This document shows, in pieces, positions 1 to 16,483 of a stretch of DNA of 64,000 nt. Made by a program: the position numbers and the translations under genes. The DNA comes from Umbilicaria muhlenbergii (Eukaryota; Ascomycota; Lecanoromycetes; Umbilicariales; Umbilicariaceae), in NCBI GenBank assembly GCA_000611775.1, contig KK106982.1, positions 1,968,643 to 2,032,642 of the forward strand, read 5' to 3'. A model generated the notes under the pieces. The model ran no database searches. It was not told the DNA's origin and was given only the letters and a program-made list of their open reading frames with translations. The first letter of the stretch is position 1. Each line of letters opens with the position of its first letter.

Positions 1-2155
1 TTAAAATCTGAAGAGGACTTCTCTCATGTCTTATGTTTCTTCATGTCTGATGTAGCTGATGTGATCTCATCAACATTCTTCAGGCTCTTACCTGTCATTA
101 TCTTGATCACCTTGAAGTTTTCAGTTGACAGCTTTTAACTCACTGATAATTCTTCCTGCATTCAAGTGATTCTCTTTTAATTCTTGCTGTTTTTTCAGAA
201 AGCTGTTTGACTCTTCTCTTTTTCTTCAGAGTTTATGAATTCATACATCTTTTTTCATATCTTGTTGTACAACACTTTTTTGTTCTTTATGACTGCTCTG
301 ACTTTCATCACAGGTTTAAAGCTTGACCTCATCTTTCTCATTCACTTGATTGAATTAAAGTCTGTGCCTCAATGTGCTGTGCATTTTGCTGATGATATCT
401 CATTTTTTATTATCTCTGCAGTCAGGACGTCTGTCAATCTTATGTATTTTAAAGATCAAGTTGAAGTGTCATCCTTCTTGTAGTCTTCTCAGTTAAATTC
501 TTTCATCATTATTGATCAGTCTGTAAATGCTTCACTTGAAGGTTGAGTTCTCTGTTTTGTCATTATCTTTGTACTGACTGCTTTTCCTACTCTATAGACT
601 CTTACTCAGTACTCAAGTCTCAGTATTTAAACTCATTCTTTAATAGACCTCAGATCTTTCTTCTCTGTCTTCATGAACATCATTTCAGGAGCTTTGATCA
701 GAAGTGTAAACTTGTTCATGAATGTTCACTGTGATGAAAGGTATGAAGGCGTCATGCTTGTGATTATAAAATGATGTTTGATATCTTTGATTGAAAGTGA
801 AGGCTTGTTCAAGAGTGTTCACTGTGATGAAAGGTGTGAAGGTGTCACGCTTATGATTGTAAAATGATCTTTAATATAAGAGATGAGCTCTGTGATGTTA
901 AGCTTATCTGTTATTATCTTTTTCAGAGTGATAACTCATCCTGTCTGCTCATGTGAAGATTACTCAAATATGCTGAAGTCTTCAGCTTTGAAACCTTCAA
1001 GGTCTGACAAGTTTGATGTCTTTAAATGTGCTTCAGTTGTCCTCCTCACTCAATGTTCAGTGATTGAACTGAGGAACAGACTGATAAAAAGTCTTGCTGA
1101 TGACAAATTTTACAGTTTGTAAGCTTTCAGGCTTGCATAAGCGGGCTGAATCATGATGAGATCAGTAGTTGCAAGTGATATGAGTGTCATAGAGATGAGT
1201 GCAATTGAGGTGAGTGTGACTGAGGCATGCACATGTGAGGTGAGTGTAATTGAGGCAGGTGAGAATGAGATGATTTAAACTTTCCTCTCTTCCCTTTCTC
1301 TCATTTCTCTCAATATCACTTTAGTTTTATTCTTATCAATTTGCTCTGAATTAGTTCCCTCACTCTTTGCTTTCTCTTTCAGAGCAGCCTTTTGATATTT
1401 TATATCATCTCAGTTATTCTTATGATGTTTCTCTGCAGTTAAGCACTTCATTTCTGCTTTAATGACTTAATCTGCTCTTTTTCTCCTTTCTCCTTCTGAG
1501 CTGTTGCTGTAGTATGTGAACATTAACTCATCCTTGCCCTCACTGAGCTTGATGATGTGTGAGCATTTCTTCATAGTAATAACCTGAGCTTGAGATCATT
1601 CTGGCTGACGGTGATAGAGTTTGTTTAAATTTAAGACTTGATTTGTGTTGTCTTTTCACATCAAGTAGAGCTTATGAGCTTCTGCAAAGTTGTAATTGAT
1701 ATTGAAGTTCTCTTCTGTGCTGACAAAGCTGTTTAGTGTGAGGCTTCATTCAGGTCTGCCTCACTGATCTTCTTTTAACTTATAAATGTTTGAGTCATGA
1801 GGTCAGTTGAGTCATCATTTTGATTCTTTCATGAGGTGATAATATAGTTCATATGAAATAAATTGTAAGAGCAGGACTACTGTGTAAATGAGATCTTTCA
1901 CTGATGAAATGCTCTCACATATCTCTTGTAATGTGAAAGCTCCGCCTGATGATGACAGCTCAGCATTTCATAATTCAGAATCATGTTGATGTATTAAGGA
2001 AATTTGTTTACTTGTAAGATGATGATTTTGCATCTGCTCACTGCTCAATCATTCTTAAGCACTTTTTTTTTTGATTATGTCTTGCAATGCAACAAGCGCT
2101 CTGATATCACAAAACCACTGCATGCAAAGAATGAGTAATGTAACATGCAAGCAAA
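1..2155. repeat. RIP-like repeat DNA left of element A, family not identified
   Basis: This stretch is AT-rich, almost free of CpG, and without a credible gene. Open frames are short and show no domain I recognise. It contains a 93-bp tandem duplication (692-784 and 785-877). On the minus strand, near 2093-2107, there is a stretch close to TGATATCAGAGCGC, which resembles the initiator-tRNA-Met primer site used by many Ty1/copia elements. That would fit a copia-type internal region running leftwards, but it is a single weak clue. Alternatively this is the continuation of element C, because A inserted between position 2155 and 16484. Confidence 0.5.
692..877. repeat. 93-bp tandem duplication, two copies
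   Basis: Two adjacent units of 93 bp (692-784 and 785-877) share the core cttgttca...gtgttcactgtgatgaaagg. They differ mostly by C/T and G/A changes, as expected for a duplication later hit by RIP. Confidence 0.7.
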
Positions 2156-2588
2156 TGTAACAGGTGGTGTCATAATGATGAAGATAGTACAATCATTCAA
2201 TGAACTATATCAATGTTCATCTAACCACGGCGCTTGATTCAATGAACTACTGATCACATGTAGACTTAAATAAGCTAGAAGGCAGTAGACCTATGAGATT
2301 GCATTTGATACATGAGTTGAGCATGAGCTCCTAACTATGAATCTACCTGTGATTATATAATACTTTAGAAGACTCATGTGTGACTGTACTGCTCTGTGTG
2401 TGTAACTTTACTGCTCAGGGTGCTCATGCTCTGAGCATCATGAGTGATTGAGTGCTCAAGGTGCTCATGCCCTGAGCATCATGAGCAGTTGAGTGCTTGA
2501 GGTGCTCATGCCTTGAGCATCATGAGCAGTACCACATGTACACCTGCTACATGTATCATCCAGGTACTGTTTAGTGAGAGGTGTAACA
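2156..2588 (-). repeat. 3' LTR of element A (433 bp)
   Basis: The LTR runs TGTTACA...CCTGTTACA on the minus strand. A TATATAA box lies near 2354-2360. It carries the same internal 41-bp repeats as the other LTRs. A purine-rich tract immediately inside (about 2592-2602, read on the minus strand) is the likely polypurine tract. Confidence 0.93.
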
Positions 2589-3121
2589 TTAGCTCTCTTC
2601 TCAACATTTTCATCCTTGAAAACTCAACCTTCTTCATGCCTTCAATTGATATCAGAAAGAAGAAGTCATCTACTTCTCATTGTTCTCATTTGATCAATTC
2701 AATCACTGAGAACAGGAGGATTATCATGTGAACATGTAGTCACTGCTTAACTGATGACAAAGAGTGTAAAATGTTAAATGATTGTGACAAGTGCAACATC
2801 TGCATTCAGCTGAGTGTCTCTTGTGACTTATTCATATCTCTGAAGGAGATCAACAAGGTGAGCATGAAGATTCATCATTTGAAAAAGAAAAAGGATGTCA
2901 TCATGACACAAAAGCAAGAGATAAGAGTGAAGAAAGAGAGGCTTCACAAACAAATTGTTTTTCTGAGAAAGAAACAGTCAGACTTGATCTGTACTGAACT
3001 TCAGAACATTGAAGAGTTGAAGATGAATGAGCACACAGCTGCTGTAACTGCTGATTTTTCTATTGAACCTTCACTCAACTTTCTTGCGTCTGAGGCTTTT
3101 GATCTCAGTGACATGAACTGA
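2522..3121 (+). other. Antisense accessory reading frame of element A (broken), starting inside the 3' LTR
   Basis: This is a 600-bp frame on the strand opposite to gag-pol. It begins at an ATG inside the 3' LTR and ends in the region just after the chromodomain. The same frame, also exactly 600 bp, occurs in element B (15322-15921). Both copies are broken. The visible parts are an N-terminal Ser/Thr-rich segment, then (about 2733-2830) seven cysteines with spacing C-x2-C-x6-C-x5-C-x2-C-x2-C-x6-C, identical in both copies. After that comes a Lys/Glu/Leu-rich coiled-coil-like stretch. Six of the cysteines fit the Zn2Cys6 consensus (C-x2-C-x6-C-x8-C-x2-C-x6-C), although the usual basic residues between cysteines 2 and 3 are weak. 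The zinc-cluster reading is inference. Confidence 0.6.
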
Positions 3122-4132
3122 CTTCCTGCAGGTTTCTTTAATGAAACTGTCACAGTTTCACTGCATAATGAGTGAGATTTTCCTCTGACTCTCATGTGTT
3201 TCCTTCACTGTTGTATCCTTTTCATTTGATCAAGTAGTGTGACTCATCATTTATGTCTTGCTGATCTAGGATTTCTTCTACCTTGAATTCAGCATCTTGA
3301 CTTTTCAGGTTGATTTCTGATGATTTTTCTTGTATTGACATTTCTGGGTCTGCTGGTTTGAGTAGTGATATGTGGAATACTGAGTGTATTCACATAGTGA
3401 GTGAAAGCTCAAGTTCATAGTTGATGCTTCCCTTAGCTTTTGCAATTTAAAAAGGTCTCAACTTCATGTGATTTAATTTGTTGCTAAATCACTTTGTCTT
3501 GATGTTGTGATGCAGAAGGTATATTTTATTCCTCTTTTTAAGAGTAAGTTCTTTATCTCTCTTTTTATTATAATATATCATTGATCTTTCTGAGGCAAAT
3601 TTGATGTTCCTTTGTAGCATTTCATGCAAGTCTTTAAGGTGATTCACTTGTATTCTTGCTTTTTGTGTTATCATTATTAGCCCCCTGACCTCATTCATAG
3701 CCGGGTTGAAATCATAATTGATGTAGAATGATGATACTTCAGTTGTCTTTGTTACTGTTGAATTGTATGTTAACTGAGCTATTGGTAAGAGTTCTACTCA
3801 ATTAGTTTGTTGATAATTAACATAACAATGTAGGTATTGTTTCATAGTTTGATTTAATCATTCTGTCTGCTCATTCATCTGAGGATGATATGATGTTGAT
3901 AACTTGTGATGAATCCTCAACTGGTTCATTAATGATTTTCAGAACTTGAAGGTAAAGAGTTTATCCTTATCAGAGATTATCTCTTTCAGCAGTTCATGAT
4001 TAACTGTTATAATTCTTAAAAACATATATGTGAGTTCCTCTGCTGATGATGCTTCATTGTATGATATGAAGTATTCATATTTCATAAGTCTGTCAGTGAT
4101 AATCAATATTGAATCATAAACTGCTTTCATCA

Positions 4133-5252
4133 CATCCGCAACTTGGCAGCCCGCTCAAAAATAAGGTTTTAGTTAATAGTACTTTATGCGCTCAGAGCAC
4201 TCTCTGAGCAGTAAATGAGCTCATACAAATCTTACACTTTAAATAACTATTATACATTAATGAATAATAAAAAACTTTTTATTGAAAAGTTTTAAATCTC
4301 TTTATTCTGTACACTTTACAAACTAAAAATTTCTTCATAAGTTTTAATTTGCAATAGTTATGAATTAAAAAACTTTTAACTAATTATAAATATATTAGCA
4401 TATTAAATAACTATTGCGCTTTTATACTTATAATATAACTTTCAGTTTATAAGTTGTAGAGAATAAGCTGTTTAAGAGTTTTCTTATACAAAGTTTCTTT
4501 TTATGTGTTATTGTTGTTGAGTTATTCAAAAAGTCATTAAAAGTCTATTTATTAATATTGTGATTTTCATCACTGAAAGTTTAAAATCAATGTAACTTTT
4601 TAACAACAACAGTTATAAAAAAACTTTAAATTATAAAACTGTTTAATAGCTTCTTCTCTACAACTTATAAACTAAAAGTTATATCATAAGTATAAAAGCG
4701 CAATAGTTATTCAAAGTATGTGACTTTTTTTAAAAGATTTCTCGCTATTGAAAACTTGAATTAAATATAACTTAACAACAACAGCAGATATGAAGAAACT
4801 TTTAGTTTAACATTAATAAAAAATACTGTTTTTTATAACTTATGCATTGAAAGTTTCTTCATATCCGTTGAGGTGCAAAAGTTATTAAAGTGTGTAAATT
4901 TTTAAGAGGCGAAAATCTTGAAGTTCTTTAAATAGTCAGAACTCAACACTTATACAGTGCTTGCAGACTCAACAAATCATGATTTTTTATTGCAGAAAAG
5001 TGAATTTTAGCAAAAGTTTACTTATTATAAATTTTACTGTTATTATAACACTGTGTGTGTACTTGTTTAAACAATTGTTTTAATAACTGTTTTTTTATCA
5101 CAAAATTTTGATGTTCCGCTCAAGATTTAAGGTTGAGCTCAAAGCGCTCAAAGGGTGCTAAGAGCGGCTGTTAGCTGAGACATGAGATCAGAAGCTCAGA
5201 GCGCTCAAAGTGCTAAAAACTAACTCAGAGCTAACTTGCTAAATTGCTGATG
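4133..5252. mobile_element. Foldback / MITE-like DNA element inserted in element A
   Basis: Comparison with element B shows a clean 1,120-bp insertion in the integrase region of A, flanked by the dinucleotide CA on both sides (4131-4132 and 5253-5254) where B has CA once. The ends are imperfect inverted repeats: CATCCGCAACTTGGCA on the left against CATCAGCAATTTAGCA as the reverse complement on the right. Inside, long inverted arms fold around about 4558. For example, the stretch from about 4405 (ctattgcgcttttatact) returns in reverse complement up to about 4710. No transposase frame is visible, so it is non-autonomous. The superfamily is unresolved: a 2-bp CA duplication does not fit the strict TA target of Tc1/mariner. 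Confidence 0.8.
4405..4712. repeat. Long inverted repeat inside the foldback element
   Basis: Arms of about 75 bp or more (about 4405-4480 and 4632-4712) are near-perfect reverse complements separated by a loop of about 150 bp. Weaker pairing continues inward (ttattgttgttgagtta against taacaacaacagttataa). The RNA or single strand could form a large hairpin. Confidence 0.8.
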
Positions 5253-8200
5253 CAGGGGTTCTTTCAACCTTGATAGTTTTACTACAAAGTTTAGTGTGAT
5301 ACTCACTCATGATCTCAATGATGTCTTTAATGACTTGAATAAACTGTATGACTTATGTTGATCTGCTTTGCTTCTTCAGCAGATGTCACACTTCTGAATA
5401 ATCTCTTCAATCTTTTTCTTCATGTGTGAGAAGTAATATGTCCTTGTGAGTCATTCTACTGTTTTGTCAATTTCTTGATGATCATGCATTTTGTTGAAAT
5501 GACTTTCCTTTATTAGCTTTCATTGAAGACTAGTAGAAACATAGATCAAGTCTTGAAAAAGTAATAAACTTTTCTTCTTTTTGAAGCTTTCATGATCTTT
5601 AATATTCTGAAGAACCTGCTGTGTTAACTTATCATTCTTCAACACTTTTTGAATCTCATTTTTAAAAATGCTATCCTCTACCTGTATGATAAGGTTGAAC
5701 TGTTTATTGAAAGACATGTCTTCTTGCTTATCCTCCTGAAGGATAACATGACTGATGACTGATTTGTCTTGCAAATAATCAGCTCATTAATTGAGAGTGT
5801 TTATTTTAATGTTCTCTGATCCTTTCTGATAATGAATCTTGAAGTTATACTGTGACAACTCTTCTGATCAACGCACTTGTCTTCAATTTAAGACTTTCAT
5901 TGTCATAAAATACAACAGATTTTTATAATTTGAGTATACTTAAACCTCATGTTTAGGTCCTTTCAGATACACATGTCATTGCTTGAATGCATCAACAATA
6001 ATTAACAGCTTCTTGTCATGTATCTCATAACTCATTTCAGCGCTTAAAAACTTTCTTGAATAGAAAGCTACTGACTGTAAACATCTCTTATCATTTAACT
6101 GATTGATGCATGCTTCTATAGCTTCATCTGATGCATTCATCTCAAGCGTAATAGGTTTCTCAGGGTTGAAACTCATGAGAATTGATTGAGAAGTGAATCT
6201 CTTCTTTAACTCATTGAAGGCTTTCTGTGCTTCAGGTGATCACTTGAATTTCTGATTCTTTTTGATCAACTTCATTAGAGGTGATGTGATCTTTGAATAC
6301 TTCTCAATAAACTTCTTATAGAAGTTTGTGAACTCAAGGAAGAATTGTACTTCCTTGATGTTCTTTGATACTGATCATTCAATCACAGATCATATTTTCT
6401 TTAAGTTCATTTATAACTCTTCTGATGTTACTATGAAGCCTAGGAAGTGTACTTCCTTGAAATAAAAAAGACTTTTCTCAGGCTTTACCTGTAGTCCTGC
6501 ATCTTGAAGTGCTTGCAGAATTTTTCAAATGTGCTGAACATGCTGCTCCTTCATCTTGAAGTAGATCAGTATGTCATCAAGGTAAATGATCATGAACTGA
6601 TTTAAGTACTCTCATAGTATGTTATTAATAAAAGCCTGAAAAGTTGCTGACGCGTTCATCAATCTGAAAGGCATTACCAGGTACTCATAAAGTCTGAATC
6701 TTGTTCAGAATGCAGTTTTTCATTCATCTCCTTCTTTGATATGAATCTGGTTGAAGGCTCCTGAAATATTAAACTTGATGAATCATTACACTCTTTGAAA
6801 CTGATCCTGCAGTTCTGAAATGAGTGACAAAGAGTAACTGTTCTTGACAGTTATGTTGTTCAATGCTTAATAATTAACACACAACTTAAGTGAACTGTCT
6901 GATTTTGGCATGAACAGTATTGAATATTCAGCTGAAGATTAAGATTTTTGTATGAATCCTTTTCATAAGTTCTCCTCTAAGTATTCTCATAATGCGTTTA
7001 ACTTCTGAGGTGACAATGAGTAGATAAGTTGTTTTGTTGATGTACAATCTTTCATGATCTTGATTTCATGATCTTATTCTTAATGTTTCAGCAAGACATC
7101 CTGATCTTTTACAGCTGTAAACAATTCCTTGAAGTCTTTATATTCTTTAAGGATAAGTAGCTTGATAACAGAGTCTTGATCATCTTCAACTCACCTGCTT
7201 CATAATATCTTTGCATTGAGATTCTTTAATTCCTCATGTGTCTCTTCTATTAACATAGTGAAGATCTTCACACCTTCAGGTGAGTTCAGGACTGAATATA
7301 ACTTATTAAGATTATCACTCTTAATGAAGTATATCTCATTTTCAGCTCAATCAATCATCAGATTGACTGCTCAGAGTCATGATATTCTTAAAATTATGTC
7401 ACTTCCTGATTGCTCTGTTATGTTGAATTGAATCTTTTCTCAATGTTGACTTAATCAGATAGGCGTGAGAATCATCTCTCAGTTTACTCATTCATCATTA
7501 TGTTTCATAAAGGTCTCATTAAACTCTTGAAGTTTAAAGGGATTCTGCTTCACCTGTGTTTGAATTACATGTTTCACAGTAAATTCTGAGTTCATGAAGT
7601 TCCCTGTGCAGTCACTGTCTATTAACAGTTGAGCTGGCTGATCATTGACTTTAACTCAGACATGAAAATTGCTCATGTCTTTCTGTGCTGCAGTGATGAA
7701 CTCTTGCTGTCATTCATTGTCTGAAGGCTTCAAAGTAAATGTCTTCAGGAGCCTCTGACCTGAAGAGCCTTTTAGTTTTTTAAATTAAAAGGAGAGAAAC
7801 TTAAGTTCTTCTTTACATACTTGAAGTCTTTCAGATTCACTCTCTGAGCTGAATGTTTGCTCAGATCTCTCTTAAAGTATTCACTTCAGAGTTCTCATAC
7901 TTTCATATGAAGTTCTCATGAGATGTGTACTTCATCAGAGGTAACATATCCTCTTCTGATGATGAACTGAGAACCTTTCAGAGGTGTCTTTTTAATTATA
8001 TCTTGATAATTGATTTCCTTGTGATTTTGCTTCTGTGTAAATGCATCTCAAATAATGTAAAGGATCTGATTTTTTATCTCTTTTACTCACTTCATGTACT
8101 CCTCTTTCTTGCTGAGGGCATTGAGTATTTCAGTGTATGTTCAAATTCATCTTTCTTCATGAGTAGTTAATCACTCATTATTGTCTTCTTTCATAAGTTC

Positions 8201-9441
8201 TCTTGAATCTTTTGAAGATGTTACTTTCATGAAATCTTCCTCCTCACTAGATGAGGGTATCATATCATTACTGTCAACATAATTGCCTTTCAAGTTGAAC
8301 TGCTCATGTTCAGCTTGATATTTCTCTATGTCTGTGATGAGGTTACTGCAAGAGATCATGACATACTCTTTTGTCTTCTTTGATTGACATGAAAATCATT
8401 CAGAGTCATCTTTGTCACTCTGATGAACTGTACAGCTGTCATCATAACAAGCTGTTCAAGACATAATGTTATGTTGAACTGATTATTTCAGTGCTGACTC
8501 TTTTAGCACAGCGGCGTATGTCTTCTTTTTTGATGAAAAGGCTTTCATTGAGACTCAATAATTGCATGTGAAATGTTCTGACTTTTCACAGCTATAGCAA
8601 TTCTCTTTAATTCTGATACTCTTTGATAGCTGCTTGATTCCTCTCTGAAATCAATTCCTTCAGAAAGCTGCATCAATTTTCATTGACTGAGGGTCATAAT
8701 AAGATTGATTATTATATTGAGTGCTTTCATGAGGCTTGTTTGCCTTTGATGATACATAATTCTTTTGGCTTTTTTTCATAGATCTTTCATACATGCAGTT
8801 GTTGATGATGACTGACTTTTCAATCATCTTAAGTAGGGTGACTGATCACTTCAATCAGGAGATTTCATTCTTAATGAAGTTCTTTAAGCCCTTGTAGTAC
8901 TGCGCGGTCAAGGCAGTGTCATCTCAATTCATATACATGACATGTCTTTGAAAATTAACTGCATACATCATGACAGCTTCTTTCTGCACAATATTATAAA
9001 TTTCTCACTTCATGATCCTTTCTTGATTAATGATTTTAAACATAATTCTTATCTGCTTCTTGAACTCCTTTAAACTGAAGAAGATTTCATTCATCTCATC
9101 ATCATGATTCTTCTTCTCATTTTTCATATAATCTCAGAGAGTCAGCTCAAATCAATTGAGAGCATCAGATCTTAAGTAAAAGAACATGTACAACACTTTG
9201 TCAGACTTCTTCTTGAACATAATATGATTGAGGTGAATGTAAGTATCAAGCTGAGTGAGGAATGAACTCAACATTTTATGTTCCTTTAAGAACTTGTCTG
9301 ATGATGAGATCTTGATCTTCATCTCTGATGATGTCAAGCTCTCAATGACTGATGAATCACAGCTGAAGGCTGTCATCCTTTTAAGGAACTCATGAGTCAC
9401 AGTTCATTTCATGACTGATATCTTGATGATGATGCTCAAAA

Positions 9442-9689
9442 TGTAACAGGTGATGTCATAGTGATGAAGATAATATAATCATTCAATGAATTATATCAAT
9501 GTTCATTTAATCACAGTGCTTGATTCAATGAACTACTGATCACATGTAGACTTGAATAAACTAGAAGGCAGTAGACTTATGAGATTACATTTGATACATG
9601 AGTTGAGCATGAGCTTCTAACTATGAATCTACCTGTGATTATATAGTACTCTAAGAGACTCATGTGTGATCATACTGCTCTGTGTGTGT
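9442..9689 (-). repeat. 5' LTR of element A, inner part (248 bp)
   Basis: This is the part of A's 5' LTR that lies next to its gag region. It is cut at 9689 by element B. The remaining 185 bp resume at 16294, and the two parts add up to 433 bp, the same as A's other LTR. Just inside, 9429-9439 reads ATGATGCTCAA, the complement of the presumed primer-binding site. Confidence 0.93.
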
Positions 9690-9751
9690 TGTTACACCTC
9701 TCAGTAAATGGTACCTGAATGATATGCATAGCAGGCGTACATGTGGTACTG

Positions 9752-9874
9752 CTCATGATGCTCAAGGCATGAGCACCTCAAGCACTCAATCACTCATGAT
9801 GCTCAAGGCATGAGCACCTCAAGCACTCAATCACTCATGATGCTCAAGGCATGAGCACCCTTGAGCAGTAAGAT
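9752..9874 (+). repeat. Three 41-bp direct repeats in the LTR (U3)
   Basis: Units start at 9752, 9793 and 9834; the third is diverged at its end. Each has a CTCATG...CATGAG inverted repeat around ATGCTCAAGG, so each could form a short hairpin. The same array is present in every LTR of A and B. They may be regulatory repeats upstream of the TATA box. Confidence 0.85.
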
Positions 9875-9919
9875 TACACATGTAGAGCAGTACAGTCACA
9901 CATGAGTCTTCTAAAGTAC

Positions 9920-9962
9920 TATATAATCACAGGTAGATTCATAGTTAGAAGCTCATGCTCAA
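9920..9962 (+). promoter_or_regulatory. Presumed LTR core promoter and transcript start of element B
   Basis: TATATAA at 9920-9926 is followed about 30 bp later by ATGCTCAA (9955-9962), where the transcript would begin. These eight bases are complementary to the primer-binding site after the LTR (10126-10133). The promoter role is inferred from position only. Confidence 0.4.
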
Positions 9963-10125
9963 CTCATGTATTAAATGCAATCTCATAAGTCTACTACCTT
10001 CTAGCTTATTCAAGTCTACATGTGATCAGTAGTTCATTGAATCAAGTGCTGTGATTAGATGAACATTGATATAATTCATTGAATGATTGTATTATTCCTG
10101 TCATTATGACATCACCTGTTACACT

Positions 10126-10136
10126 TTGAGCATCAT
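10126..10136 (+). other. Presumed primer-binding site of element B, possibly self-primed
   Basis: TTGAGCATCAT begins two bases after the LTR end. It shows no match that I recognise to the 3' end of a tRNA (no leading TGG). Its complement ATGATGCTCAA occurs in the LTR repeats, and the 8-nt core ATGCTCAA lies at the expected transcript start. This is the layout of the self-priming Tf1/sushi-type elements. Element A has the same arrangement (9429-9439 on the minus strand). Confidence 0.45.
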
Positions 10137-13100
10137 CATCAGAATATCAGTCATGAAATGAACTGTGACTCATGAATCTTTTGAAAAGATGACAGTCTTC
10201 AGCTGTGACCTGTCAGTCACTGAAAGCTTGACATCATCAGAGATGAAGATCAAGATCTCATCATCAAACAAGTTCTTAAGAGAATGTAGAATGTTGAGTT
10301 CATTCTTCACTCAGCTTAATACTTACATTCACCTCAATCATATCATGTTCAAGAAGGAGTCTGACAAAGTGTTGTATACATTTTTTTACTTGAGGTTTGA
10401 TGCTCTTAATTGATTTAAGCTGACCCTCTGAGATTATATGAAAAATGAGAAGAAGGATCATGAAGATCAGATGAATGAGATCTTTTTTAATTTAAAGAAG
10501 TTCAAGAATCAGATAAGAATTGTGTTTGAGATCATTAATCAGGAAAGAATCATGAAGTGAGAAATTTATAATATCATGCAGAAAGAAGTTGCTGTGATGT
10601 ATGCAGTCAATTTTCAGAGACATGTCATGTATATGAACTGAGATGACACTGTCTTAACTGCACAGTACTACAAAGGCTTGAAGAACTTCATTAAAGATGA
10701 AATCTCTTAATTGAAGTGATTAAGTACCTTAGTCAAGATGATTGAAAAGTCAGTCATCATCAACAACTGCATGTATGAGAGGATCATGGAAAAAAACCAG
10801 AAGAATTATGTATCATCAAAGGTGAACAAGCCTCATGAAAGCACTCAGTATAATAATCAGCTTTATTACAGCTCTCAACTGATGAAAATCAATGTGACCT
10901 TCTGAAGGAATTAATTTCAGAGAGGAGTCAAGCAGCTACTGAAGGGTATTAAAGTCAAAGGAAATTGTTATAACTGTGAAAAACCAGGACATTTCACATG
11001 CAATTGTTGAGTCTCAATGAAAGCCTTTTCATCAAAGAAGAAGACATACGCCGCTGTGTTAAAAAAGTCAGCACTGAAATAATCAGTTCAACATAATGTT
11101 ATGTCTTGAACAGCTTGCTATGATGACAGCTGTATAATTCACTGAAGTAACAAAGATGACTCTGAATGATTCTCATGTCAATCAAAGAAGGCAAAGGAGT
11201 ATGCTGCAGCCTCTCACAGAAATTCTGTCACAGATGCAGAGAAACATCAAGTTAAGTAAGATCAATTCAGCTTGAAGAGCAACTACATTGACAGTGATGA
11301 TATGATACTCTCATTCAGTGAAGAGGAAGACTTCATGAAAGTAATGTCTTCTGAAGACTCAGATGAGTTCATGAAAGAAGACAAGAATGAGTGATTAACT
11401 ACTCATGAAAAAAGATGAATTCAAATGTATACTGAAATACTCAATGCCCTCAGCAAGAAAGAGGAGTATGTGAAATGAGTAGAAGAAATAAAGGATCAGA
11501 TTTTTTACATTATTCAAGATGCATTTACACAGAATCAGAATCATGAGGACATCAATTATCAAGATATAATTAAGAAGACACCCTCAAAAGGTTCTCAGTT
11601 CATCATCAGAGGAGGATATGTTACCTTTGATGAAGCACACATCTCATGAGAACTTCATATGAAAGTATGAGAACTTTGAAGTGAATACTTGAAGAGAGAC
11701 CTGAACAAGTATTCAGCTCAGAGAGTGAATCTGAGAGACTTTGAGTATGTAGAGAAGAACTTAAGCTTCTCCCCTTTTAGTTCAAAAAATTAGAAGGCCC
11801 TTTGAGTCAGAGGTCTCTGAAGACGCTTAATTTAAAGCCTCTGAGCAGTGATCAACAATGAGAGTTCATCACTGCAGCACAAGAAGACATGAGCAACTTT
11901 CATGTTTAAGTTAAAGTCAATGATCAGTCAGCCTGACTGCTAATAGACAGTGACTGTACAGGGAACTTCATGAACTCAGGATTTACTGTGAAACACATAA
12001 TTCAAACACAGGTGAAGCAGAATCCCTTCAGACTTCAAGAGTTTAATGAGACCTTTATGAAACATAACAATGAATGAGTAAACTGAGAGACGGTTTCTAC
12101 GCTCATGCGTTTAGGTCAACATTGGGAAAAGATTCAATTCAACATAATGAAGCAATCAGGAAGTGATATAATCCTGAGAATATCATGACTCTGAGCAGCA
12201 AATTCAATGATCAATTGAGCTGAAAATGAGATATACTTTGTTAAGGGTGATAATTTTAATAAGTTATATTCAGTCCTGAACTCACCTGAAGGTGTGAAGA
12301 TCTTCATTATGTTAATGAAAGAGATGCATGAGGAACTGAAGAATCCTGATGCAAAGGTATTATAAAGTAGATGAGTCAATGATGATCAAGACTTTATTAT
12401 CAAGTTATTTATCTCTAAAGAATATAAAGACTTCAAGGAATTGTTTACAGCTGTAAAGGATCAGGACGCCTTGTTAAAACATTAAAAATGAAATCATGAA
12501 ATCAAGATCATGAAAGGTTGCACATCAATGAAGTAACTTATCTACTCATTGTCACCTCAAAAGTTAAACGCTTTATGAAAATACTTAGAGGAGAACTTAT
12601 GAAAAGGATTCATATGAGAATCACAATCTTCAGCTGAATATTTAATACTGTTTATACCAAAATCAGATGATTCACTCAGGTTGTGTGTTGACTATTGAGC
12701 ATTGAACAACATTATCATCAAGAACAGTTACCCTTTGCTGCTCATTTCAGAATTGCAGGATAAATTTCAGGGAGAAAAATGATTCATAAAGTTAAATATT
12801 CTGAGAGCCTTCAACCAGATTTGTATCAAAGAAGGAGATGAATGAAAAACAGCATTTCAAACAAGATCAAGACTTTATGAGTACCTGATAATGTTTTTTA
12901 AATTGACAAATGCGTCAGCAACATTTCAGGCTTTTATCAACAACATACTGCAGGAATATCTGAATCAGTTCATGATTATGTACCTCAATGATATACTGAT
13001 CTATTTCAAGACAAAGGAGCAGCACATTCAGCATGTTTGCAAAGTTCTGCAAGCACTTCAGGATGCAGGTTTGCAGGTAAAGCCTGAGAAGAGTCTTTTT

Positions 13101-15321
13101 CATTTCAAGGAAGTACACTTCTTAAGCTTCATCATAACATCAGAAGGGTTACAGATAAACTTAAAAAAGATATAATTTATGATTGAATGATCAGTACTGA
13201 AGAACATCAAGGAAGTACAGTCCTTCCTTGAGTTCACAAACTTCTATAGAAAGTTTATTGAAAAGTATTTAAAAATCACATCACCTCTAACAGAGTTGAT
13301 CAAGAAAGATCAGAAATTTAAGTGATCACTTGAAGCACAAAAAGCCTTCAATGAGTTGAAGAAGAGATTCACTTCTCAATTAATTCTCATGAGTTTCAAC
13401 CCTGAGAAACTTATTACGCTCAAGACAGACGCGTCAGATGAAGCTATAAAAGCATGCATTAATCAGTTAAACAATAAGAGATGTCTACAGTCAGTAGCTT
13501 TCTATTCAAGAAAGTTTATAAACACTGAAATGAGTTATGAGATACATGACAAGAAGCTGTTAATTATTGTTGATGCATTTAAACAATGACATGTATATCT
13601 GAAAGGACCTAAATATGAGGTTTAAATATACTCAGATCATAAGAATCTGTTGTATTTCATGACAACAAAAGTCTTAAATTGAAGACAAGTGCATTGATCA
13701 GAAGAGTTGTCACAATACAACTTTAAAATTCATTATCAGAAAGAATCAGAGAACGTTAAAGCAGATGCTCTCAGTTAATGAGCTGATTATTTGCAAGATA
13801 AATCAATCATCAGTCATGCTATCCTCTGAGAGGATGAGCAAGGGGACATGTCTTTTAATAAACAGTTCAACCTCATCATATGAGTAGAAGATAACATTTT
13901 TGAAAACAAGATTCAAAAAGCATTGAAGAATGATAAGTTAACACAGCAGGTTCTTCAGAATATTAAAGATCATGAAAGCTTCAAAAAGAAGAAAGATTTA
14001 CTACTTTTTCAAGACTTGATTTATGTTTCTATTAGTCTTCAACAGAAGCTAATAGAGGAGAGTCATTTCAACAAGATGCACAGTCATCAAGGAATTAACA
14101 AAACAGTAGAACAACTCACAAGGACATATTACTTCTCACACATGAAGAAGAAGGTTGAAAAGATCATTCAGAAGTGCAACATCTGCTGAAGAAGCAAAGC
14201 AGATCAACATAAGTCATACAGTTTATTTAAATCATCAAAGACATCATCAAGATCATGAACAAGCATCACATTAAACTTTGTAGTGAAACTACCAAGGTTG
14301 AAAGAACCCCTGATGAAAGCAGTTTATGATTTAATATTAATTATCACTGACAGACTCATGAAGTATGAATACTTCATACCTTATAATGAAGCATCATCAG
14401 CAGAGGAACTCACATATATGTTTTTAAAAATTATAATAATCAATCATGAACTGCCTGAAGAGATAATCTCTGATAGAGACAAACTCTTCACCTTCAAGTT
14501 TTGAAAATCATTAATGAATCAGTTAAGGATTCATCATAAGTTATCAACATCATATCATCCTCAGACAGACAGACAGACAGAACAATTAAATTAAATTATG
14601 AAATAATACTTACAATGTTATATTAATTATCAGCAAATTAATTGAGTAGAACTCTTACTGATAACTCAGTTAACATACAACTCAGCAGCAACAGAAACAA
14701 CTGAAGTATCATCATTCTACATCAATTACAGTTTCAACTCAGCTATGAATGAGGTCAGGGGACTAATAATGATAACACAGAAAGCAAGAATACAAGTGAA
14801 TCACCTCAAGAACCTGCATGAAATGTTGCAGAGAGACATTAAGTTCACCTCAGAAAGATCAGCAGTATATTATAATAAAAAGAGAGTTAAAGGACCTACT
14901 CTTAAAGAGGAGAATAAAGTATACCTTTTACATCATAATATTAAGACAAAGTGACTTAGCAACAAATTAAATCACATGAAGTTGAGACCTTTTTGAATTG
15001 CAAAGACTAAGGGAAGTGTCAACTATGAACTTGAGCTTTCACCTGCTATGTGAATACACTCAGTATTTCACATGTCACTACTTGAATCAGCAGACCTGGA
15101 AATGTCAGTGCAAAGAAATTCATCAGAGATTGACTCAGAAAGTCAAGATGCTGAATTCAAAGTAAAAGAAATTCTAAATCAGCAAGACATAAATGATGAG
15201 TCACACTATCTGATCAAATGAAAGGGATATGATAGTGAAGGAAACACATGAGAATCAGAAGAAAATCTTACTCATTGTGCAGTGAAACTGCATCAGTTTC
15301 AGCAAAGAAATCTGCAGCAAG

Positions 15322-15921
15322 TCAGTTCATGTCAACAAGGTTAAAAGCCTCAGGCGTGAAGAAGTCAAGAGGAGGCTCATTAAAAGAATCAGCAGCTGTA
15401 GTAGTTGCATGCTCATCTGCCTTCAGTTCCTTGATGTTCTGAAGTTCAGTACAGATTAAATCTGACTGTTTCTTCCTCAGAAAAGTGATTTGTTTGTGAA
15501 GTCTCTCTTTCTTCACTCTCATCTCTCACTTTTGTGCTGCAACAGCATCCTTTTCTTTTTTCAGATGATGAATCTTCACACTCACTCTGTTGATCTCCTC
15601 TGAAGATATGAATAAGTCACAAGAGATGTTCAGCTGAATGCAGGCATCACACTTATTACAATCATCTGACATCTTGCACTTCTTGTCACTGATTAAGCAG
15701 TGACTACATGTTCACATGACAATCCTCTCATTCTCAGTGATCAAATCAGCCAGATGAGAACAACAAGAAGTAGATGACTTCTTCTTTCTGATATCAGATG
15801 AAGGCATGAGGGAGGTTGAGTTTTTGAGGACAAAAATGTTGAGGAGGAAGCTAATGTTACATCTTTCAGTAAATGATACCTGAATAATACATGTAGCAGG
15901 TGTACATGTGGTACTGCTCAT
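15322..15921 (-). other. Antisense accessory reading frame of element B (broken)
   Basis: This is the counterpart of 2522-3121 in element A: 600 bp, on the strand opposite to gag-pol, starting inside the 3' LTR. The cysteine pattern (about 15610-15712) is the same as in A, and the coiled-coil-like Lys/Glu/Arg/Leu stretch follows. It is broken, as in A. It may encode a DNA-binding or dimerising accessory protein, which is inference from the pattern alone. Confidence 0.6.
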
Positions 15922-16288
15922 GATGCTTAAGACATGAGCACCTCAAGCACTCAATCACTCATGATGCTCAAGGCATGAGCACCTTGAGCACTCAACTGCT
16001 CATGATGCTCAGAGCATGAGCACCCTTGAGCAGTAAGATTACACATGTAGAGCAGTACAGTCACACATGAGTCTTTTAAAGTATTATATAATCACAGGTA
16101 GATTCATAGTTAGGAGCTCATGCTCAACTCATGTATTAAATGCAATCTCATAAGTCTACTACCTTCTAGCCTATTCAAGTCTACATGTGATCAGTAGTTC
16201 ATTGAACCAAGCGCTGTGGTTAAATGAATGTTGGTATAGTTCATTGAATGATTGTATTATCCCTGTCACTATGACATCACCTGTTACA
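15855..16288 (+). repeat. 3' LTR of element B (434 bp)
   Basis: The limits are TGTTACA...CCTGTTACA. It is preceded by a purine tract gaggaggaag (15841-15850), the likely polypurine tract, and followed by the target duplication TGTGT. Confidence 0.95.
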
Positions 16289-16293
16289 TGTGT

Positions 16294-16478
16294 AATCTTA
16301 CTGCTCAGGGTGCTCATGCCCTGAGCATCATGAGCAGTTGAGTGCTTGAGGTGCTCATGCCCTGAGCATCATGAGCGGTTGAGTGCTCAAGGTGCTCATG
16401 TCTTGAGCATCATGAGCAGTATCACATGTACGCCTGCTACACATACCATCCAGGTACCGTTTAGCAAGAGGTGTAACA
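16294..16478 (-). repeat. 5' LTR of element A, outer part (185 bp)
   Basis: This is the displaced outer end of A's 5' LTR, restored beyond element B and ending in TGTTACA on the minus strand. GCAAA follows directly and matches the sequence left of A. Confidence 0.93.
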
Positions 16479-16483
16479 GCAAA

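Follow-up and report, generated by a model that had tools for sequence, protein, structure and literature searches.

The window analysed here, a stretch of 64,000 nucleotides of Umbilicaria muhlenbergii DNA placed within contig 2 of the genome searched (34.8 Mb, seven contigs), opens with about 23 kb of AT-rich, repeat-holding sequence in which two Ty3/gypsy retrotransposons of one family, elements A and B, lie nested, B being inserted in the 5' long terminal repeat (LTR) of A (Table 1). Both elements carry a reading frame that runs antisense to gag-pol and is located between pol and the 3' LTR, with six cysteines spaced as in a zinc cluster. This frame is real and was very probably once a gene. 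A preliminary description of the same DNA had reported a 600-bp frame opposite to gag-pol in A and B. The orientation is borne out by the strands of the open pol pieces, placed at 3492–3797 (minus) in A and at 12846–13172, 13884–14186 and 14646–14951 (plus) in B, the first two of B matching reverse transcriptase and integrase. The location stands as well, but the frame is not open, as stops occur at codon 70 in both elements and at codon 132 in B.

The antisense frame and its likely start

The frame was followed through two sets of copies. The 57-copy set holds A, B and 55 loci with a single match of at least 1.6 kb to positions 2153–4132 of A (L001 of this set is A itself, and L054, with its matches broken into shorter pieces, was left out), and the 64-copy set adds seven shorter fetches. 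The copies were taken from the best 40 of 172–417 candidates per genome search, the sets thus not being all copies, and all 64 were selected for matching the antisense region or its surroundings. Every copy examined is dead. The two LTRs of A differ by 41 transitions and 0 transversions and those of B by 32 transitions and 0 transversions. Decay is therefore almost wholly of the C/T and G/A kind. Most transversions go back to the time before copy death and reflect how the parental elements differed from one another; for this reason the constraint tests were run on transversions. Variation over positions 2522–4132 of copies L002–L057 was also seen to consist nearly entirely of transitions, TG occurring together with CA in 117 column pairs, TG with TA in 78 and CA with TA in 39. 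CpG sites are strongly hit in the family of A, not CpA alone; the classical Neurospora decay pattern affects CpA alone. A split of the family by one marker codon was tried and, as just one column followed the marker, subfamilies were not used.

Over positions 2636–3118 no codon of the antisense frame is stopped in at least 95% of the 57 copies, while the other five frames have 8, 6, 1, 2 and 8 such codons. Stops reach a majority of the copies in 2 of the 161 codons of the antisense frame and in 6 of those of the mirror frame. With the fewest fixed stops of the six frames and a homologous frame in a second family (see below), the antisense frame is more than chance. The longest open stretch in A covers 129 codons (2732–3118), and the stop at the end of the frame is present in 41 of 57 copies. 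The internal stops look secondary, because the copies split at the two common ones as CpG decay would give. The low indel count (one frame-shifting indel in 57 copies) is not evidence of coding, since positions 3122–3330 have none either. Four positions of the pol frame (3941, 3800, 3224 and 3194) carry a stop in 95% or more of the copies; the last two probably represent its end, so that pol and the antisense gene would meet tail to tail, barely overlapping or not at all.

An ATG inside the 3' LTR (2522), from which translation had been proposed to start, is found in each LTR of both elements, four in all, and is kept in 63 of the 64 copies. Several observations speak against this start, which was rejected as the likely one. 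Codons 13–18 hold 7 of the 18 transversion columns of the frame; among codons 1–38, 1 of 7 such columns is strictly silent (3 of 7 under the decay-tolerant rule used below); and L069, the single copy of the second family with the upstream stretch, reads Val at position 1 and is interrupted by a stop at position 17. Codons 1–38 run across the end of the LTR and the presumed polypurine tract, which limit change for other reasons. Met codon 39 (2636), in contrast, is ATG in 61 of 64 copies of the family of A and is aligned with Met in 5 of 5 copies of the second family. It is the likely true start, 48 bases past the LTR edge. With the LTR start unsupported, the further proposal that the 5' LTR would point the same start outward into flanking DNA loses its basis. 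A spliced message beginning in the LTR is conceivable.

Homology with a second family and coding constraint

Other gypsy copies were listed by searching with a profile of integrase, and five downstream stretches (L065–L069) were taken, which represent three families as judged by DNA similarity. Four more copies of the family of L069, hereafter family 2, were added (L070–L073), namely the three most diverged among those listed and one close; a first look at this family gave 222 candidates. The pol of this family is about 77% identical in DNA to the pol of A. L069 has a frame that is likewise antisense and placed between pol and the 3' LTR, and it matches the piece of A with 38% identity over 100 residues (expectation value, E, 1e-09) and that of B with E 1e-10. 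In tblastn searches of L069–L073, the 129-residue piece of A gave E values of 5e-05 to 2e-12 and the piece of B of 2e-05 to 5e-14; amino-acid identity between the A/B frame and the family-2 frame is 30–38%. When positions 2636–3118 of A were translated in six frames and compared with family 2, the antisense frame reached E values of 7e-09 to 1e-14, followed by the mirror frame (2e-04 to 3e-03). The frame is thus present in most copies and conserved as a protein, as an additional antisense gene should be, to judge from the 64 copies and the second family. The preliminary description had named the lack of an intact homologous frame in related elements as grounds for giving up the idea of a regulator; this applies in part, as a homologous frame is present in family 2 but no intact copy was seen.

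Two other families with two copies each (L065/L066 and L067/L068) showed no significant homologue. The former pair was considered as evidence from a third family and discarded (tblastn E 0.44 for L066; profile E 0.39 for L065 and 3.4 for L066). On the minus strand of both copies, at about 1770–2200, a stretch rich in cysteines runs antisense and leads into 83 open codons; by eye it is like the motif in its second half, but the similarity is not significant. A search of IMG/VR for relatives of the piece of A gave 19 pattern matches, none of them confirmed. Elsewhere (G000:C4:4513701-4518353) six tandem matches to the antisense region of L069 follow one another with a spacing of 742 bases, which marks a region of the element that has been amplified locally.

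In the pol of the family of A (3400–4132) the transversions by codon position are 2, 1 and 12, so the codon-position test works. The antisense frame of family 2 has 3, 2 and 14 transversion columns at positions 1, 2 and 3 (14 of 19 at the third; binomial P = 0.00038, for five copies and with columns treated as independent), a third-position bias of the kind left by coding constraint in the past; in 5 of these 14 columns the five copies agree in their amino acid. The family of A (57 copies, codons 39–199) has 11 transversion columns, 4 of which are silent in the strict sense against an expectation of 12% (P = 0.033), and under a rule of silence that tolerates decay the antisense frame has 8 of 11 against 5, 2, 6, 4 and 3 of 11 in five control frames. 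Within codons 39–174, 3 of 7 columns are strictly silent and 7 of 7 are compatible with silence, the three of the 11 that are not compatible being placed in the tail (codons 175, 181 and 196). The comparison of silent and nonsilent change that had been suggested beforehand was run on transversions: codon positions favour constraint in family 2, and the silence test is weakly in favour of it in the family of A.

The cysteine motif and the predicted helix

Within the window the pattern C-x2-C-x6-C-x8-C-x2-C-x6-C is found at just two places, one in A and one in B, and in none of 100 shuffles. Zn2Cys6 clusters have the spacing C-x2-C-x6-C-x5..12-C-x2-C-x6..8-C, and the motif of the family of A falls within it. 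The six cysteines are encoded in 64, 64, 62, 62, 62 and 64 of the 64 copies, with Tyr in the remainder; the zinc-cluster spacing seen originally in A and B is conserved in these copies. At the same six positions family 2 has either Cys or Tyr (Cys in 5, 4, 1, 5, 1 and 5 of 5 copies), and Tyr is one transition away from Cys. A shared spacing of seven cysteines had been described; the seventh, at codon 88, did not hold, being Tyr in 45 and Cys in 19 of the 64 copies and Phe or Ser in family 2, which leaves six cysteines as members of the motif. An origin of the six as decay products of Arg codons was considered and found no support: CGN states were seen in 0 of 57 copies at each of the six columns, and nothing suggests that decay made these cysteines. 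The cysteine at codon 11 is likely a decay product of Arg (5 CGN states). TG is kept in at least 55 of 57 copies in 6 of 6 Cys codons; elsewhere this holds for 12 of the 45 TG that remain in the frame and for 39 of 106 in pol. As the copies are dead, such retention is not taken as a sign of selection.

In profile searches with PF00172 (Zn_clus), 17 of 45 copies matched at E values up to 10 (best E 0.024), single scans matched 4 of 10 copies with 10.7–12.7 bits, and the pieces of A and B themselves gave 0 matches. A PDB profile search with the 45 copies returned 3 matches at E values up to 10, none of them a zinc-cluster protein. Between the second and third cysteines, Lys is present at codon 80 in 57 of 57 copies and at codon 81 in 16 of 57, with no Arg, and 3 of the 32 codons from 70 to 101 show both decay classes. 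The reservation made at the outset, that the basic residues typical of DNA-binding zinc clusters are weak and that both copies are broken, was seen here too; as the decay strikes Arg codons most of all, the weak basic residues say little.

AlphaFold predicts one long helix behind the cysteines, with 61 residues at a predicted local distance difference test score (pLDDT) of 90 or more; over residues 1–30 the mean pLDDT is 52, 58 and 75 (two sequences). The heptad count was reached by 102 of 2000 shuffles for A and by 290 of 2000 for L069 and is not significant. The coiled-coil-like stretch noticed earlier is accordingly retained as a predicted helix, and its heptads are not. With its basic lead, the zinc-cluster-like motif and the long predicted helix, a product of about 160 residues would have the layout of a small protein that binds DNA as a dimer.

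A putative antisense regulator and its alternatives

We consider it probable that the frame is the fossil of an antisense gene for a DNA-binding regulator, present in at least two related Ty3/gypsy families. Position, orientation, homology between the families, conservation of the motif and past coding constraint in one family are established. Known Zn2Cys6 transcription factors (PF00172) share with the frame the exact spacing of the six cysteines and a helical stretch behind them; they differ in that the frame scores below the Pfam cut-off, has weak basic residues, is only about 160 residues long and lies antisense in a retrotransposon. The layout of such a regulator, claimed in the preliminary description, stands for spacing and helix but not for membership of the family. 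Filing as Zn2Cys6 is not justified, given the Pfam scores below the cut-off, the larger number of copies that match PSI_integrin and a predicted fold without a cluster.

Several results weigh against a regulator, or against a coding frame altogether. None of the copies scanned reached the Pfam gathering cut-off of PF00172 (21 bits), and PSI_integrin, an unrelated cysteine-rich family, weakly matched 23 of 45 copies, compared with 17 of 45 for Zn_clus. AlphaFold formed no confident zinc cluster, and Foldseek gave 0 matches against PDB. All 56 copies of the family of A that are gap-free over codons 39–199 carry one to five stops (the other 8 of the 64 were not counted), as do all five family-2 copies read, so that no open copy was found among these 56 and 5, and in family 2 the total of stops is 30 in the mirror frame and 31 in the antisense frame. 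The 64 copies of the family of A have 5, 2 and 4 transversion columns by codon position over codons 39–199, with no third-position dominance; by the strict rule the excess of silent columns is borderline, and the decay-tolerant rule carries much background. The small number of copies and the assumed independence of columns in the family-2 test also belong here, together with the 9 of its 14 third-position columns that sit in codons with further changes or stops. Short DNA-level matches between both families are also present in the antisense region. Fixed transversions between the families show no bias (41, 42 and 42 by codon position), and third positions differ by 33% in the antisense region against 10% in pol. 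Judged by its sequence, the antisense region would be older, faster or exchanged between elements, and with a divergence so flat and high constraint is not readable at that depth.

The first alternative, a coding antisense gene whose cysteine cluster lacks specific DNA binding and makes protein–protein or RNA contacts, for instance in particle or silencing functions, we regard as unlikely. The weak basic residues, the unreached PF00172 cut-off and a model that is most confident in its long helix would suit such a protein, but the exact zinc-cluster spacing is common to two families that are otherwise about one third identical, and weak basic residues say little where Arg codons are so exposed to the decay. 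It is quite improbable that an antisense non-coding RNA from the 3' LTR formed double-stranded RNA with the message of the element, the frame being a by-product. The TATA in the LTR reads both ways, whereas the third-position bias of family 2 points to a protein, and so does the amino-acid similarity between the families, which is weaker in each of the five other frames. A chance open frame over non-coding 3' sequence, with cysteines resulting from decay, is very improbable and already largely refuted: the lack of an intact copy and of third-position bias in the family of A, and the fair openness of two opposite-strand frames, are outweighed by a homologue with the same six positions in the second family, by the 14 of 19 third-position transversions there and by the complete absence of CGN states at the cysteine columns. 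A sense-strand env-like third gene in the mirror frame, with the antisense frame as its shadow, can hardly be credited, for although the mirror frame is second in openness in the family of A, equal in family 2 and itself similar between the families, the antisense frame gives much the better E values (down to 1e-14) and is interrupted by majority stops less often in the family of A, and the transversion bias falls on antisense third positions, the sense frame that shares them having 10 majority stops per family.

Under the preferred reading of an antisense gene for a DNA-binding regulator, the gene would be placed tail to tail with pol, between pol and the 3' LTR, and would most likely be driven by an antisense promoter on the 3' LTR side. 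The product, of about 160 residues, would consist of a short basic lead, the six zinc-cluster-spaced cysteines, a long helical stretch that probably forms a dimer, and a variable tail; it would enter the nucleus and bind DNA. The repeated palindromic sites in the LTR itself are the first candidate target, and binding there may tune the transcription of the element, by analogy with the HBZ and APH proteins of human T-cell leukaemia virus (HTLV). The simplest and most likely reading of the function is self-regulation through the LTR. Each step past translation, from zinc binding and dimerisation to the binding of DNA with the LTR as target, is one that we infer, and so is antisense transcription itself. 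That a gypsy lineage had an antisense zinc-cluster transcription factor of its own, used on its LTR as an independent fungal counterpart of HBZ, is put forward tentatively, as a possibility that we hold somewhat doubtful.

Antisense genes at this place of an element are already known. In the sources as available, brtn is described as an antisense gene of Boty-like Ty3/gypsy elements of Botrytis cinerea (Zhao et al. 2011, Virology 417:248, via PMC7264820, PMC8365987, PMC4227169, PMC5987419), and it resembles the present frame, by description and not by sequence, in belonging to a fungal gypsy element, as an extra gene that runs opposite to gag-pol and sits between pol and the 3' LTR. The passages available mention no zinc motif (PMC8365987, PMC4227169), report that brtn is missing from the last B05.10 annotation (PMC8365987) and refer to a Monilinia transcript resembling BRTN (PMC5987419). 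The plant aORF-3R genes, as described in the parts accessible, include gene23 of maize Grande and those of rice RIRE2 and Retand, with a TRP28 domain, PF04195 (PMC7264820, PMC11963269). Retand has antisense open reading frames with the probably DNA-binding TRP28 domain in 97% of clusters and tandem arrays in the pol–3' LTR area in about half of the elements (PMC11963269, 2025, in the passages available). These genes are likewise antisense, between pol and the 3' LTR and kept across a lineage, with products proposed there as nuclear or DNA-binding regulators; they differ in belonging to plant elements, and the word zinc is absent from both articles. Their placement, which is also that of brtn, was found in A, B and L069. 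The function of the plant and Botrytis genes is given as unknown in the part of PMC7264820 available. HBZ and APH of HTLV are described, in the text available, as antisense genes expressed from the 3' LTR that regulate the virus's own expression, HBZ having a basic leucine zipper (bZIP) dimerisation region (PMC10186651). The fungal frame, known here from DNA alone, resembles them as a putative regulator gene that lies antisense on the 3' LTR side; it differs in having a cysteine cluster, not bZIP, and a start that is most likely outside the LTR, so that a coding start inside the 3' LTR, as in an HBZ-like, LTR-initiated gene, has no support here. A literature search over titles, beginnings of abstracts and passages, in which most subscription journals were not covered, returned no zinc cluster encoded antisense in a gypsy element. 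The zinc-cluster layout seems to be the new part.

A regulator-like motif in an antisense gene offers a concrete, testable idea, zinc-dependent binding of DNA at the LTR. Zn2Cys6 proteins are a main class of fungal regulators. If true, the proposal would link retrotransposon self-regulation to this class, and these elements may once have carried a regulator of their own, built from the type used by their host kingdom; mobile transcription factors would arise from such elements, provided that promoters of the host were among the regulator's targets. Testing on transversions alone provides, in addition, a way to probe coding constraint in elements ruined by transitions.

Two features of the LTR may bear on its regulation. 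The 41-bp tandem array overlaps the LTR ATG and has a unit with inverted halves, a possible set of regulator sites. Recurrent indels of 27–41 bases were seen among the copies over LTR positions 2156–2521, as if the array varied in copy number. The motif TTATATA is invariant in 55 of 57 copies, those with sequence there; it reads as TATA on both strands and may mark a two-way promoter. A sigma-70 scan of the LTR was set aside, as it does not apply to a fungus.

Table 1. Positions of elements A and B, their repeats and the features of the antisense frame (numbering of the window)
Feature	Position	Strand	Remarks
Element A	2156–9689 and 16294–16478	sense = minus	perfect 5-bp target duplication GCAAA
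3' LTR of A	2156–2588	−	target duplication GCAAA at 2151–2155
5' LTR of A, first piece	9442–9689	−	split by B
5' LTR of A, second piece	16294–16478	−	followed by target duplication GCAAA, 16479–16483
Element B	9690–16288	+	nested in 5' LTR of A; duplication TGTGT at 9685–9689 and 16289–16293
LTRs of B	9690–10123 and 15855–16288	+	
Purine-rich stretch, presumed polypurine tract	2589–2605	−	adjoins 3' LTR of A on sense strand; read from sequence
Frame in A as first reported	2522–3121	+	codons 1–38 (2522–2635) overlap LTR end and presumed polypurine tract, probably not coding
Likely ancestral antisense gene in A	2636–3121	+	from Met codon 39; decayed
Frame in B	15322–15921	−	likely start codon 39 at 15807
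Zinc-cluster-like motif in A	2735–2824	+	C-x2-C-x6-C-x8-C-x2-C-x6-C
Zinc-cluster-like motif in B	15619–15708	−	C-x2-C-x6-C-x8-C-x2-C-x6-C
Helical, coiled-coil-like stretch in A	2825–3034	+	approximate bounds; predicted by AlphaFold
41-bp tandem array, 2.9 copies	2412–2530	.	in LTR
TTATATA	2353–2359	.	in LTR

Other features of the window were seen apart from the antisense frame. The pol of A is interrupted at 4133–5252 by about 1.1 kb of AT-rich sequence that is absent from B and contains an inverted pair (4403–4524 and 4593–4714), and it looks like another inserted element. To the left of element A lies a 93-bp tandem duplication (692–877) with copies 84% alike. Farther along the window, genes for the TCP-1 chaperonin and for an Atg17-like protein fit a fungus.
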